Shown here: positions 4,834-10,683 of the stretch, piece after piece
Position numbering within the stretch: the stretch's first letter is position 1
How the letters are laid out: every line of letters starts with the position of its first letter
DNA from: a bacterium
GTDB taxonomy: Bacteria > Planctomycetota > Planctomycetia > Pirellulales > Pirellulaceae
Direction of reading: 5' to 3'
NCBI GenBank assembly: GCA_030430075.1
Contig: JAUIGN010000002.1
Span: 1-64,000 of the forward strand
DNA length: 64,000 nucleotides
Program-made: the position numbers and the translations under genes
Notes under the pieces: model-generated
The model's input: the letters and a program-made list of their open reading frames with translations, nothing else
What the model was told of the DNA's origin: nothing
Databases searched by the model: none

Positions 4834-5925
4834 TTACGATTCGCTCGCCTTACCCTCTTTCAGCAAGGTATCCACGGCTTGATCCATGGCATCGCCGCGC
4901 ACATTCTTGTAGCGAATGACGCCCTTCTGGTCGAGCACATAGATGGTTGGCCATCCACGGACATTCCAGCGGGAGGCAATCGGTCCCGAGGTCGTGCCGC
5001 CGTCCCAGAAGGAACGCCACGTAATATTGTCGCGTTTCATCGCGGCCAGGACTCTTTCTTTGGGATCGCTGTTCACTCCGATCAGTGCGAAGGGTTCATT
5101 GGCGAGCCTCTTCACGAGCGACCGCTCGTGCGGGTACATCGCCCGGCAGGGACCTCACCAATCACCCCAAAAGTCGATCACCACGACTTTGCCCCGGTAG
5201 TCGCTCAACTTGAACTCGACACCGTCCACGTCCTCGCCGACGATCTCGGGCGCCAGCTTGCCGATCCGCAAATGCTCGAAGGCGAACAGTTCATTGTCGA
5301 CCAGGTCGGCCAGCGTTCCCCGTTCCTGACCTCCCGGATAGACCAACTTCACATCGCCGTAGTCGCGCGTGATGCGCTCCATCAACGGTTTGACCTTGGC
5401 GACGTTCGCTTCCGTCAGTTGTCGGCCTTTGGCCTTGGACATCTGAAAATACAATGCGACGCCTTGTACCGAGCGACTCTCGGATTCATCGACCAGCTTG
5501 GCCAGCGTCGCTTCGTCGTTTGCCCACATGCTGACCGCCTGGGCGAACGCATCCTGATCGCGGTAGTCGGCCAGCAGGGTCTGCTTGGCCTGGTCGGCAA
5601 GTTCCTTACCGGCCGGAGTGCGTCCCGCCAGTGAGCAGGCCATCACCAGGGGCTCGATCGCAGCCGGGGTACCGGCGTGTGCCTTGGCGAGATCCTGAAA
5701 TTTCTCGGCGAACGTTTTCGACAACTCGGGCAACCGCTTGGAAACGATCTCCTGCTTCTTCTGGGGATCTTTCTCCGCACGGTAGTCGGCAACGACCTCC
5801 TGAAAGGCCTCGTTGTACTCCTCGTTGATCGCTTTGATTTTCGCGGCGACATCATCGTCGGCCCGCAACGGCGGTACCAAGAGAGTCGCCATCAAGGCGA
5901 TCGGGAACATGATTCGTCGGTTCAT
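4834..5925 (-). CDS. TlpA-like thioredoxin-fold protein with in-frame TGA at the active site (candidate selenoprotein)
   Basis: Two adjacent frames are one gene interrupted by a single TGA at 5155-5157, with no frame change. Read through, it encodes 363 residues: signal peptide (MNRRIMFPIALMATLLVPPLRA), a helical domain (about 25-215), then a TlpA/AhpC-TSA-like thioredoxin domain starting at IGKLAPEIVGEDVDG. The TGA is codon 257 and falls exactly where the first redox cysteine belongs: FWGDW-TGA-GPCRAMYPHE, family form WCGPC. Downstream the fold is intact, including the cis-proline region GWPTIYVLDQKG. An 18-nt hairpin 24 nt after the TGA fits a bacterial SECIS. The start is ATG 5925 behind GAGGTG. 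The likely role is an exported thiol (selenol) oxidoreductase. Alternatives are a nonsense mutation or base-call error (TGC or TGT to TGA). Confidence 0.78.
5113..5130 (-). promoter_or_regulatory. Candidate bacterial SECIS hairpin
   Basis: On the coding strand CACGAGCGGTCGCTCGTG forms a perfect 7-bp stem (CACGAGC/GCTCGTG) with the four-base loop GGUC. The stem begins 24 nt after the in-frame TGA (5155-5157), putting the loop 31 nt from it. Bacterial SECIS elements are known to sit within about 16-37 nt of UGA and to carry a G in the first two loop positions; the E. coli fdhF loop also contains GGUC. Chance hairpins are common in GC-rich coding sequence, so this is supportive only. Confidence 0.5.
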
Positions 5926-6258
5926 CGGACACACCTCACATGAAAAAGATTCTGGATCGTGACTGCCGCGACACGCAGGTCCTGCTCCCGCTTTTATAAC
6001 CGATCCACCGCGGCTCGTCGCAGGAAAAGGCGAAACGGCCGTCAAGCGGACCGCCACGATCAGGCGCAGCAGGGGGTACCGATGCCGGTGCTCCAGGTCT
6101 CGCCGTGCGCCGGCCCCATGCTTCCTGCACGATGGTTAGTTTCCCGGCAACCAACCGCACGCTTGTCACGGTTTGAATGGCATGGACCATTTGCGGGGTT
6201 GGCTTGTAAACTGTGTGGCTTGACCAATCCCCCGAATCCGTGAAGGAATGCGACGAAA
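5926..6258. other. Divergent intergenic region, 333 nt
   Basis: Separates the leftward TlpA-like gene from rightward glyQS and should hold both promoters. No T-box-like element, RNA gene or repeat was recognised. Confidence 0.5.
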
Positions 6259-7950
6259 ATGCAAATGGAAAAACTTGTTTCGCTCTGCAAACGGCGAGGT
6301 TTCTTGTTTCAGTCGAGCGAAATCTACGGCGGCCTCCAGGGGTTTTGGGATTATGGACCGCTGGGCGTCGAACTGAAGCGGAACGTCAAGGAGGCCTGGT
6401 GGCGCGACATGGTCAATGCTCACGACGACCTCACGGCTCCGGCAGGCGCCCCGTCACCCTATGAGATGACCGGCCTGGATTGCACAATCATCATGCACCC
6501 CCAGGTATGGAAATGCTCGGGCCACTACGACCTGTTTCACGACCACATGGTCGATTGTCGAGAGACCAAGAAGCGGTATCGCCACGATCAGGTGCGTGGC
6601 CGCTGGGTGGAAGCGAAGGATCAAAAGGTCTTCGTGACCACGATGGCGGCAATCGAGGACGAGCAAGCCGATGTCCAGGCCCGGGCCCTCAAGTTCTTTC
6701 ATTTGCGTGCCAAGCATGCCGACCAGTTGAAGTGGGTCGGCGACTTTCTCGCCTTGCCGGAAGTCGACGACATGAGCCAGGTGCTCGGCCCGGACGCCAA
6801 GTCGCTGGATACGCTCACCGCCCCGCGCGAATTCAACTTGATGTTCAAAACGACAATCGGCGCCCTGGGCGGGGAGGACGACGTCTCGTTTCTGCGGCCG
6901 GAAACCGCCCAAGGCATCTTCGTCAACTTCAAGAATGTGCTTGACAGCAGCCGCGTCAAGATACCGTTCGGCATCGCCCAGGCGGGCAAGAGTTTTCGAA
7001 ACGAGATTACGCCTCGCAATTTCACCTTCCGCTCGCGCGAATTCGAACAGATGGAAATCGAATTCTTCTGCCACCCGGACACGTCCCATGCCTGGTACCA
7101 GTACTGGCGCGACCGCCGCATGCAGTGGTACACGGACATGGGATTGGCGGGCGAACGGCTGCGGCTGCGGGAACACGACCCCGACGAATTGAGCCATTAC
7201 TCGACCGGTACCGCCGACATCGAGTACGCCTTTCCGTTCCTGCCCGCAGGCGAATTTGGTGAATTGGAAGGGATCGCCCACCGAGGCGATTTCGACTTAC
7301 GGAGCCACATGGAAGGCAAGCTGGACGAAAAGAGTTCGCCGCTGGAAGTTCAATTGGGGCCGGACGGCAAACCAAAATGGCGGGGCAGCGGCAAGGACTT
7401 GTCGTACTTTGACGACGACGCCTGGGAACGCGACAAGGAACAACTGGGAATGAAGTCGTTCAAGGAATACCTCAAACAGAACAAAGACGCACCGCGTCCA
7501 GGCGCCCCCTATCAGTTTATTCCGCACGTCATCGAACCTTCGGCCGGCGCCGACCGGGCGACGCTGGCGTTCCTCTGCGAATCGTACGACGAAGATCAAG
7601 CGCCTGACGAAAAGGGAAAACTGCAGACGCGGACCGTGATGCGGTTTCATCCACGGTTGGCCCCCGTCAAAGCGGCCGTTTTTCCGTTGGTCAAGAAAGA
7701 CGGCATGCCCGAGTTGGCCAAGCAGGTGTACCGCAACCTCAAGGCCAACTTCAATGTCTTCTATGACGAAAAAGGGGCCGTCGGCCGACGTTACCGCCGG
7801 CAAGATGAAATCGGAACGCCGTTCTGCATCACCGTCGACGGACAAACACTGGACGATCAGACCGTCACCGTCCGGGACCGGGACTCGCTGGAACAATGGC
7901 GCGTCCGCATCGATGAGATCGTCGACGATCTGCGCCCGCGGCTGGTGTGA
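6259..7950 (+). CDS. glyQS: Glycyl-tRNA synthetase, dimeric class II type
   Basis: A 563-residue class II aminoacyl-tRNA synthetase that charges tRNA-Gly in the cytoplasm. It starts KLVSLCKRRGFLFQSSEIYGGLQGFWDYGPLG, the diagnostic N-terminus of the single-chain alpha2 GlyRS rather than the split GlyQ/GlyS type. Motif 2 is seen in SFRNEITPRNFTFRSREFEQMEIEFF and motif 3 around the ADRATLAFLCESYDED segment; the C-terminal anticodon-binding domain runs from FHPRLAPVKAAVFPLVKK to the end (DEIGTPFCITVDGQTLDDQTVTVRDRD). Two ATG codons lie six bases apart (6259, 6265); the first is used because AAGGA lies upstream. It stands alone, divergent from the TlpA-like gene. Confidence 0.97.
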   Translation: MQMEKLVSLCKRRGFLFQSSEIYGGLQGFWDYGPLGVELKRNVKEAWWRDMVNAHDDLTAPAGAPSPYEMTGLDCTIIMHPQVWKCSGHYDLFHDHMVDCRETKKRYRHDQVRGRWVEAKDQKVFVTTMAAIEDEQADVQARALKFFHLRAKHADQLKWVGDFLALPEVDDMSQVLGPDAKSLDTLTAPREFNLMFKTTIGALGGEDDVSFLRPETAQGIFVNFKNVLDSSRVKIPFGIAQAGKSFRNEITPRNFTFRSREFEQMEIEFFCHPDTSHAWYQYWRDRRMQWYTDMGLAGERLRLREHDPDELSHYSTGTADIEYAFPFLPAGEFGELEGIAHRGDFDLRSHMEGKLDEKSSPLEVQLGPDGKPKWRGSGKDLSYFDDDAWERDKEQLGMKSFKEYLKQNKDAPRPGAPYQFIPHVIEPSAGADRATLAFLCESYDEDQAPDEKGKLQTRTVMRFHPRLAPVKAAVFPLVKKDGMPELAKQVYRNLKANFNVFYDEKGAVGRRYRRQDEIGTPFCITVDGQTLDDQTVTVRDRDSLEQWRVRIDEIVDDLRPRLV

Positions 7951-8050: not shown

Positions 8051-9190
8051 TCAGTTCTCACCCAATCCCGGCCGGTCGCAGGCCAGGAAGTCGATCGGCA
8101 ACGACGTCTGGCCGTGCAACGTCAAGTCGGCCAGAACCTCGCCCAGGACACTGGCAAACTTGAACCCGTGGCCTGACAGCCCGGCCGCGAATGAGACGTC
8201 ATGATGGCGAGGGTGCCGGTCGACAATGAAGTGGTCGTCCGCCGAGTTGGTGTAGTAGCAGACGGCGTGGTCGAGCGGCCGGAGGTCGACTCCGGGCAGG
8301 TGCCGCCGCAGGAATCGCTCGACGCGGGCACGCTCGGCCGGGTCAACCGACTTGTCGTCCCTGAGCGGATCCTGAATCAGCGTCCCGCCCCCATGCGCGG
8401 CGACCTTGAGGCCCCGTTCGTCGATCTGGGGAAACCCATAAAAGAACCCCTCGCCGGTTTCGTAAAAGAACGCCGGGCAGCCGTGTTGCTGGTGGTAACG
8501 GGTCGCGTCGCAAGCGAACCAGTGGAGATGCTGCCGGCGAACGTCGAGCGGAATCCGCAAGGATCGCAGCAGGTCACGGGCCCAGGCACCGGCCGTGATC
8601 ACCAGCTTGCGAGCATGCCAGCGGGTCGTCGTCGTCTGAACCGTGACGCCGCCGGCGGTCGCGTTCCAGGCGATCACTTCCTGTCCGCTATGAAACTCGG
8701 CCCCAGCGTCCGCCGCAGCGGACAGGTGGGCCAATACACAGTCTTCAACCAGCAAGAACCCCGCTTCACGCTCGAAGACCGCATCCGCGCCGGGCGGCAG
8801 GCGAAAACCGCGGTAGGTTTGCTCGAAGTCCTTCGGCGCCAGTTCGACAACATCCAACTGGTGTTCGGCCGTGCTTTGCCGAACGCCGGGGATCACCACT
8901 CCGTCAGGCGGCCCGATTTCAATCAGCCCTGACTCCCATAAGAGTTGCTTCCCGTGGATGGCCTCAAGCTCCCGCCAGAGCGTGTAGGCACGCTGCAACA
9001 GGGGCACATAGCTGGGATGCTCGAAGTAAGCTTTACGAATGATCCGCGATTGACCGTGGGAACTGCCCTGGTCGTGGCCGCCCGGGAATCGATCGAGGCC
9101 AAGGACGCGGAGGCCGCGCCGAGCCAGATGGAAGGCGGCGGCGCTTCCCACACCGCCCGTCCCGAGAACAATCACATCGTACGCGGTCAT
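8051..9190 (-). CDS. solA: Sarcosine oxidase / N-methyl-tryptophan oxidase-like flavoenzyme
   Basis: A 379-residue FAD-dependent amine oxidase of the monomeric sarcosine oxidase (MSOX/MTOX) family, which oxidatively demethylates N-methyl amino acids, producing formaldehyde and H2O2. The dinucleotide fold GTGGVGSAAAFHLARRG is at residues 10-26, and SSHGQSRIIRKAYFEHPSY is a strong family signature. Cys311 in VCYYTNSADDHFIVDRHP corresponds to the cysteine that binds FAD covalently in MSOX. The start ATG overlaps the stop of the upstream lipoprotein gene as ATGA, so translation is probably coupled. The exact substrate cannot be read from sequence; the gene symbol is family-level. Confidence 0.88.
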   Translation of the reverse strand: MTAYDVIVLGTGGVGSAAAFHLARRGLRVLGLDRFPGGHDQGSSHGQSRIIRKAYFEHPSYVPLLQRAYTLWRELEAIHGKQLLWESGLIEIGPPDGVVIPGVRQSTAEHQLDVVELAPKDFEQTYRGFRLPPGADAVFEREAGFLLVEDCVLAHLSAAADAGAEFHSGQEVIAWNATAGGVTVQTTTTRWHARKLVITAGAWARDLLRSLRIPLDVRRQHLHWFACDATRYHQQHGCPAFFYETGEGFFYGFPQIDERGLKVAAHGGGTLIQDPLRDDKSVDPAERARVERFLRRHLPGVDLRPLDHAVCYYTNSADDHFIVDRHPRHHDVSFAAGLSGHGFKFASVLGEVLADLTLHGQTSLPIDFLACDRPGLGEN

Positions 9191-10683
9191 CGAATCCAGA
9201 ACTCGATATCAGCCTGGTTGGACTTATTCCCTTTCACATCCTGCATCGTCAATTGCAAGGTGTAATGGCCCGCTTCAATCTTCTCAGGCAGGAAAACGCG
9301 ATAGGCGATAAAGTAGTCGTGGCGGCGGTTGGTGCTGACCTGTTTGTCCAGCGGCAACACGCTGCTCGCGACCCGCTTGCCGTCCGTGTCGAGAATCGCG
9401 TACTCGCCCTGAAGTTCGGTCTCATGACGCCCCGGCGTTGATTCCGCCGCAAAGTTTTCGACTTCGACATACAGCAGCACCTCCTGGCCCGGCTTGAAGC
9501 CATTCGAGTCAAATTCATCGAAGTAGCCGTAACTGATGACGCGGCGGCAAAAAGCCAGGTTGCGCAGATCCAGCGTGCTAAGATTGGCCAGGTGGTCGGC
9601 CGCTTTACGCAGGCTGCCGAGCGCCAGGGCCGATCGGCGGCCGGCGGTATTCTTTTCGTCGGCATCGAGGGCGTGCAGCAAACCCATTGTCACGTGCTTC
9701 CAATACCCCCGCTCGTCCTCGCCGACTTCCTCGATCGGCTCAAGAGCCTTTTCGGAATCGTTCAGGATCGCGTGCAGGAGTCGGGTGTTTGCATTCAAGC
9801 GGCTCCGCTGCTGGGCAGTCAGTGCATCGCTTGCCAACTCTTGTTCCAGGGCCGCCAGGGCCGCTTGCGTCGCAGCGCGCCACGCCCCAGGTTGCGCTGG
9901 AGCCTCCGAGGCGGGAGTGGTGTGGGACGCAGGTACGACGGCGCCGCTCGTCGACGCCATCTCGCCGACACGCGCGGCCTCTCCCTTTGCCGCGGGTGCG
10001 GCAGCGGGTGACTCGCCTTCCGCGTTGTCCGCAGCCGGAGCGGCCGTCGGCTCGTTGGGGGAGTCGAGCTGTTCGTCGTTGACGTTGAAAGCGGCCGCGC
10101 GACGTTCAGCCGGGCTGAGCGTGCTCGCCCCGCTTGTGCCGGCCACGCTGGCGTTCGTTCCGCCTGGTGCCGCAGCAACGGTTTGAGGTTCACCTGCGGT
10201 GGTTGAGCTGAGGCTCTCACGGATCACTTCGGCAATGGCCTGCTTGAGTTCGCCCGCCGCCGTGTTGCCCGCCGCAGTTGTCGGAGGCGGCTCTTCATAT
10301 ACCGACCGGTACTCGGAAGTGCGCGCCTCCAAACTGCCGCCTGCCGGCGGTGTGGAGAATTGCTGCGCATAGTCAGCCGGCGTAGGGCTCCGTTGGCCGG
10401 CCGGCGAGGCGGCCCCGGGCAAGCCTCCGTCAACCAGCGGGTGAGGCGGCAAGGGTTGCTGGGACTGATCGGAAAACGACAGTGCCGTGGACGTCAATTC
10501 GCCGTGCGTAGCCGGGTCGGCAGCGAGCGCCGCATCCCGATGACTCATGCGCTGCGAGGGGAGGGCGGAAGCGGTCCGTCCCGCTTCATTGCCGCGACGG
10601 GAAAACCACGACTTCCCCGCACAACCGGTGCAGGCGACTAGAATCAGGACAACTCCAAGGTATTTTTGCACCACGATCGTCAT
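9187..10683 (-). CDS. Large lipoprotein of unknown function, coupled to the sarcosine oxidase-like gene
   Basis: A 498-residue protein with a leader ending in ILVACTGCAG (lipobox Cys at about 18), so probably membrane-anchored. A long Ala/Pro/Glu-rich low-complexity section (about residues 25-270) leads to a helical region (AAWRAATQAALAALEQELAS...) and a C-terminal beta-rich domain of about 130 residues (SYGYFDEFDSNGFKPGQEV to DIEFWIR). That domain looks like an immunoglobulin- or transglutaminase-associated sandwich. No catalytic motif is evident. The stop overlaps the start of the flavoenzyme gene by 4 bases. The functional link between a lipoprotein and a predicted cytoplasmic oxidase is unexplained. 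Confidence 0.78.
   Translation of the reverse strand: MTIVVQKYLGVVLILVACTGCAGKSWFSRRGNEAGRTASALPSQRMSHRDAALAADPATHGELTSTALSFSDQSQQPLPPHPLVDGGLPGAASPAGQRSPTPADYAQQFSTPPAGGSLEARTSEYRSVYEEPPPTTAAGNTAAGELKQAIAEVIRESLSSTTAGEPQTVAAAPGGTNASVAGTSGASTLSPAERRAAAFNVNDEQLDSPNEPTAAPAADNAEGESPAAAPAAKGEAARVGEMASTSGAVVPASHTTPASEAPAQPGAWRAATQAALAALEQELASDALTAQQRSRLNANTRLLHAILNDSEKALEPIEEVGEDERGYWKHVTMGLLHALDADEKNTAGRRSALALGSLRKAADHLANLSTLDLRNLAFCRRVISYGYFDEFDSNGFKPGQEVLLYVEVENFAAESTPGRHETELQGEYAILDTDGKRVASSVLPLDKQVSTNRRHDYFIAYRVFLPEKIEAGHYTLQLTMQDVKGNKSNQADIEFWIR

Follow-up and report, generated by a model that had tools for sequence, protein, structure and literature searches.

We found that a minus-strand gene of a Pirellulaceae planctomycete almost certainly encodes a selenoprotein, in which an in-frame UGA would be recoded as selenocysteine (Sec) at the first position of a thioredoxin-type active site. 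The gene lies in the window, the whole stretch of 64,000 nucleotides that was analysed (contig C8 of an assembly of 9.24 Mb in 101 contigs, 94.99% complete). Its features are as follows.

4834..5925, minus strand: predicted selenoprotein gene, 363 amino acids with Sec257, ATG at 5925 and TAA at 4834-4836; TGA stands at the same codon in homologues.
5155..5157, minus strand: in-frame UGA, predicted Sec codon 257, the first active-site residue in WUGPC.
5131..5145, minus strand: likely mini-stem CGGG/CCCG between the UGA and the SECIS hairpin, from covariation.
5113..5130, minus strand: putative SECIS hairpin with a 7-bp stem and a GGUC loop, covering codons 266-271 (HERSLV).
5863..5925, minus strand: probable Sec-type signal peptide, residues 1-21, recognised by eye; an unstructured, low-confidence start in the structure model.
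5272..5862, minus strand: all-helical N-terminal domain, residues 22-218, in a whole-protein model of pLDDT 94.7.
4837..5271, minus strand: ResA/TlpA-type thioredoxin domain, residues 219-363, from Pfam and Foldseek.

The frame from 5925 to 4834 on the minus strand is open from ATG to TAA, interrupted solely by the TGA at 5157-5155, which lies within D-F-W-G-D-W-TGA-G-P-C. This bears out the first-pass annotation, which had described a single TGA with no frame change, reading W-TGA-G-P-C for WCGPC. The second active-site position is encoded by TGC, and the motif is UxxC rather than UxxU. An ORF list made without recoding breaks the gene in two (4834-5139 and 5155-6057); such UGA-split genes are easily overlooked or shortened in plain ORF lists. 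The divergent neighbour at 6259-7950 on the plus strand encodes a class II tRNA-synthetase core and an anticodon-binding domain. Clustering of 539 ORFs around the loci revealed no conserved gene neighbourhood; the largest group comprised only 8 loci at scattered positions, and the gene therefore looks stand-alone. One upstream neighbour group (four loci) appeared FeoB-like by eye. Among plasmids, one from Planctomyces carries a TlpA-family match (45.5% identity, query coverage 51%).

The protein search covered the window's genome and 59 relatives and gave matches in 60/60 genomes, among the matches listed. We compared 50 loci, namely the best match from each of 30 genomes plus 20 hand-picked loci, 16 of which already had an internal stop listed; the hairpin played no part in either choice. 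Codon 257 was TGA in 24 of these homologues, Cys in 22, Ser in 2, Tyr in 1 and Phe in 1, so that the UGA aligns to the redox Cys of homologues, as is expected for a bacterial selenoprotein. The same-genus orthologue (77% identity) carries TGA at the exact codon, and so do the three genomes that rank after it (64, 55 and 47% identity). The early concern that close relatives might all have Cys, with further disabling mutations in this strain, did not hold up: the four closest relatives carry TGA, no other stop was found in the frame, and the region after the TGA is constrained. Furthermore, selA was present in 14/14 genomes with TGA at codon 257 versus 27/46 others (60 genomes, p=0.002; this and the other Fisher tests and shuffles take genomes or sequences as independent, uncorrected for phylogeny). 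Two loci, L068 in this genome (G000:C24:50100-50970) and L044, have Ser at the first active-site position (SPQC, SPAC), and their redox function has probably been changed or lost.

Compared with the same-genus orthologue, dN/dS was 0.077 over the 106 codons 3' of the TGA and 0.156 across the helical domain, which indicates purifying selection on the stretch 3' of the TGA. Against two other relatives, the synonymous sites are mostly saturated.

The first-pass annotation had also described a 7-bp hairpin with loop GGUC 24 nt downstream of the TGA, and we located it at 5130-5113 (CACGAGC / GGUC / GCUCGUG, -10.7 kcal/mol). The bacterial SECIS constraints were taken from the review PMC13188914 (Fig. 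2A). The hairpin has a loop of 4 nt, a stem of 7 bp, G as the first loop base, a UGA-to-loop distance of 31 nt and an energy below -7.5, all within those constraints; its proposed place inside the bacterial SECIS distance range, with an early loop G, agrees with that source. As a single sequence, a 27-nt piece folded with a z of -2.09 (7/200 shuffles equally good), and four pieces of 40-70 nt starting from the TGA folded no better than shuffles (z +1.40 to -1.27). No SECIS family of Rfam matched at the gene. A weak Rfam match to an archaeal leader elsewhere in the gene (E 3.4) was taken for chance. The SECIS is thus unproven by the single sequence, and its significance comes from the relatives.

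Among the 50 loci, the 12-nt hairpin core GAGCGGTCGCTC was found in 23/24 TGA homologues and in 0/26 non-TGA homologues; the remaining TGA homologue differs by one change that retains a G-U pair. Synonymous identity in the TGA homologues reached 1.00 at codons E267, R268 and S269 (276 pairs each), 0.92 at codons 266 and 270, and 0.32 at codon 271, against a background that averages 0.43. The hairpin codons of the non-TGA homologues are unconserved (synonymous identity 0.31 versus 0.39). HEREL, a peptide similar to HERSLV, occurs in 3/26 non-TGA relatives (L035, L057, L061), where different codons are used. When the pattern allowed a shorter hairpin and variable spacing, it matched the window gene and one other site of the genome (C4:401774); the latter was taken for chance because the backwards control likewise gave one site.

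The exact pattern TGA-N25-hairpin was present in 65/392 phylum genomes. The backwards control pattern gave none in the same 392 genomes, among the matches listed, and TGC/TGT-N25-hairpin occurred in 0/392. At a threshold of E<=1e-60, selA was found in 61/65 genomes with the TGA-hairpin versus 181/327 others (p=1.8e-10). The four hairpin genomes without selA (G208, G230, G269 and G321; completeness 84, 77, 77 and 91%) are perhaps incomplete assemblies. Since the same TGA and hairpin recur in 65/392 phylum genomes, a base-call error is untenable. More broadly, a sequencing error or recent nonsense mutation, with a pseudogene or a hidden Cys codon behind it, could be entertained on the ground that one assembly only covers the window, but we consider it extremely improbable: the same-genus genome, other genera and genomes across the phylum share this TGA and hairpin, the region 3' of the TGA is under purifying selection, and the frame has no other stop.

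A scan of named genomes with a 44-nt pattern gave at least 123 exact matches on at least 119 stretches, and 122 of these matches fall in the protein family of the window gene. The one false hit, L092 (titled Myxococcales), matches the exact pattern outside the protein family. The 80 titles inspected, from at least 119 stretches, are all metagenome assemblies; 12 bear Verrucomicrobiota names and most others are Planctomycetota. Odd titles among them are Bacillota (two contigs, one MAG), Proteobacteria (one) and Deltaproteobacteria (one), which may be mislabelled. The active-site motifs in the at least 122 family matches were UGPC (77), UPPC (33), other UxxC (4) and UxxU (8). At the sequence level, relatives belonging to two bacterial phyla share an almost identical putative SECIS hairpin. 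At five loci (L025, L135, L147, L190 and L202), though not in the window, the TGA-hairpin occurs twice, ~0.6-1.7 kb apart.

A likely mini-stem precedes the hairpin on the 3' side of the UGA; in it, positions 13-16 could pair with positions 24-27. In a covariation sample of 150 of 154 distinct TGA sequences, mini-stem and hairpin together had 24 cells changed on both sides, and 0/500 shuffles were as high (the mini-stem shuffles are uncorrected for relatedness of the sequences). Their covariation was 0.055, versus at most 0.029 for slid versions of the structure. However, only 5 pairs were changed on both sides, a number reached by 34/500 shuffles, and the version slid by -3 has 25 both-side-changed cells. 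In 126 sequences Arg261 is encoded by CGN; where the third base is G, the first base of codon 265 opposite it is C in 109/109, and where it is another base, C is mostly absent at codon 265 (11/17). The pair is possible in 120/126, and 0/20,000 shuffles gave as many. The three inner pairs of the mini-stem can form in 113/154 TGA sequences versus 4/21 non-TGA sequences (21 of 26 tried), and the outermost pair is missing in 90/150. These data suggest that the mini-stem is likely real.

The first-pass annotation had made its reading hinge on sel genes and a tRNA-Sec gene, and selA, selB, selD and tRNA-Sec were all found in the genome, the set by which a bacterial selenoprotein is judged. The tRNA-Sec scores 66.9 bits (cut-off 47), and its anticodon is tca (ARAGORN). 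The selB gene (355.9 bits) lies on contig C23, and the C-terminal end of SelB matches the winged-helix family SelB-wing_3. The selA gene (555.8 bits) follows ~330 bp behind selB on the same contig, with a family match along the full length of SelA. The selD gene (354.9 bits; L071, G000:C94:132435-133361) carries its own in-frame TGA, SCAGUAGK, and is thus itself predicted to be a selenoprotein gene; this TGA presumably occupies the usual Sec/Cys place of SelD. One predicted fold of the region 3' of the selD UGA contains a UGA-proximal hairpin and then a second hairpin with loop GGUCG, which begins at position 36, compared with 35 in the window gene. A second SelD match (L072, G000:C83:191079-191990, 258.5 bits) lies in a TGA-free open frame of 764 aa and is perhaps a SelD fusion protein. 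Together, the sel genes, the conserved TGA and a hairpin confined to TGA homologues support the original proposal that Sec replaces the first redox Cys.

At least two genes of this genome, SelD and the window gene, contain a TGA that is read through, which could also point to genome-wide reassignment of TGA to a standard amino acid. The probability of such a reassignment is vanishingly small: of seven window ORFs that we checked, four end in TGA (Pfam support is clear for five of the seven, absent for 9187-10683 and limited to weak cytochrome-type matches for 73-1551), the TGA of the family is tied to one hairpin, and no TGC/TGT copy has the hairpin at that spacing. Comparative genomics strongly supports the recoding of this UGA as Sec.

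The product was described at the outset as TlpA-like with an N-terminal helical domain, and both descriptions were confirmed. Over residues 221-346, Pfam detects AhpC-TSA at 73.1 bits and Redoxin at 65.3 bits. AlphaFold models the full protein with a pLDDT of 94.7, with a helical domain at 22-218 followed by a thioredoxin fold to the C-terminus. The thioredoxin domain has profile matches to ResA, TlpA and related chains, and Foldseek gave TM values of 0.81-0.88 over the listed ResA chains. Pro326 in GWPT, opposite the active site, is conserved; we take it to be where thioredoxins have their cis-Pro. The domain therefore has what defines a ResA/TlpA-like protein, namely a thioredoxin fold, a WCxxC-type site and the conserved Pro, with Sec predicted for the first Cys. 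For the helical domain, no Pfam match above cut-off and no PDB fold at E<=0.001 was found (best E 0.096). The signal-like N-terminus, recognised by eye, points to export of the protein.

All 15 NCBIfam models that were listed for the protein score below their cut-offs; ResA scores 65.9 of 170, TlpA 50.3 of 230 and DsbE 45 of 123.15 bits. By these scores the window protein is a fold-level relative outside the named NCBIfam ResA/TlpA/DsbE families. The Cys forms ResA, TlpA and DsbE resemble it in the thioredoxin domain, by profile and fold, but have Cys first, whereas the window protein has a predicted Sec first and an extra helical domain. NCBIfam NF041054, the ResA-like WAxxUGC motif protein, is likewise a selenoprotein of ResA-like fold; however, its motif is UGC rather than UxxC, and the window protein scores 32 bits (cut-off 300).

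A SECIS-dependent UGA always competes with the release factor. It is therefore conceivable that the UGA acts mainly as a regulated stop, giving mostly a truncated helical protein and Sec only when selenium is plentiful. The helical domain modelled alone (pLDDT 96.5) is confident without the thioredoxin domain, in keeping with that idea. We nevertheless judge it very unlikely, because conservation is highest in the thioredoxin domain: all 17 invariant columns of alignment A1 fall within it (7 of them, 257 and 266-271, partly due to row selection), and dN is 0.056 in the thioredoxin domain versus 0.221 in the helical domain.

The 8 UxxU cases among the at least 122 family matches are ULTU (5), UPTU (2) and ULGU (1). 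TGA at both active-site positions (ULTU, UPTU or ULGU), with one shared downstream hairpin, was observed at L041, L043, L059, L067, L086, L091, L111, L121, L131, L153, L154 and L182; ten of these loci were included in a tree. This tree, built from 67 thioredoxin domains after masking both active-site positions, groups all ten UxxU rows into a single clade (100/99). UxxC requires 6 changes in this tree, and the number of Cys-Sec switches is unsettled because 23/63 inner branches are open. SelL, attributed to Shchedrina et al. in 2007, is reportedly a diselenide UxxU selenoprotein. SelL and this sister clade share UxxU at both active-site positions; SelL is Prx-like, while the UxxU clade sits inside the ResA/TlpA-like family. 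The window gene is UxxC, and the SelL-type motif belongs to 10/67 tree rows, all of them relatives. The available part of PMC2398784 mentions SelL as a Prx-like protein.

Selenoproteins of these Pfam families, with UxxC and in some cases UxxU, are catalogued in PMC13188914, PMC9312934 and PMC2398784. The entries include the 'Prx-like thiol:disulfide oxidoreductase' (PF00578, UxxC and UxxU) and the 'Redoxin family protein' (UxxC) in the parts of PMC13188914 and PMC9312934 at hand. They are like the window gene in their Pfam families, in UxxC with Sec first and in a SECIS within the coding region. They differ in being named by domain, so far as these portions go, whereas the window gene has a helical domain at its N-terminus and a single near-invariant hairpin. 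The main text of PMC13188914, PMC9312934 and PMC2398784 makes no mention of planctomycetes, and their available parts make none of a fixed-sequence SECIS. The Sargasso Sea set already included UXXC Prx-like proteins (PMC1088965), and planctomycete selenoproteins are reported, with a candidate table S9, in the accessible part of PMC4807772. The main text of PMC5029168 contains no redoxin, planctomycet, verrucomicrob, TlpA or thiol-disulfide. UxxC selenoproteins of this fold are thus already known, and we do not claim that the window family is unpublished. What the present data add is the near-invariant SECIS, the likely covarying mini-stem and the UxxU sister clade behind one hairpin.

In the proposed mechanism, SelB with Sec-tRNA-Sec would bind the hairpin at 5113-5130, so that the UGA at 5155-5157 is translated as selenocysteine. 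The resulting protein would be exported and would consist of the helical domain and a thioredoxin domain of ResA/TlpA-like type, with Sec257-Gly-Pro-Cys260 as its active site. Sec257 may attack substrate disulfides or meet a peroxide-like oxidant, and Sec257 and Cys260 would then form a selenenylsulfide that a membrane reductant resets. The fold and the signal-like N-terminus are the grounds on which we infer Sec chemistry, export and an extracytoplasmic reductase role.

For the family as a whole, we hold it an evenly balanced proposition that these genes make up a large clade of exported selenoproteins that has hardly been described and has one fixed SECIS cassette (an 18-nt hairpin, near-invariant in its first 17 letters, the fixed 24-nt distance and, ahead of the hairpin, the mini-stem, which varies in sequence yet covaries). 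In such a clade, the RNA would dictate the peptide HERSLV, the cassette would be common to Planctomycetota and Verrucomicrobiota, and one clade would be UxxU with both UGAs served by a single hairpin. The 44-nt pattern, with 19 fixed bases, is a ready search tag for the family. The constancy of the hairpin, and the UxxU cases in which one hairpin serves two UGAs, would make SECIS sequence requirements beyond the well-studied bacteria testable with reporters.
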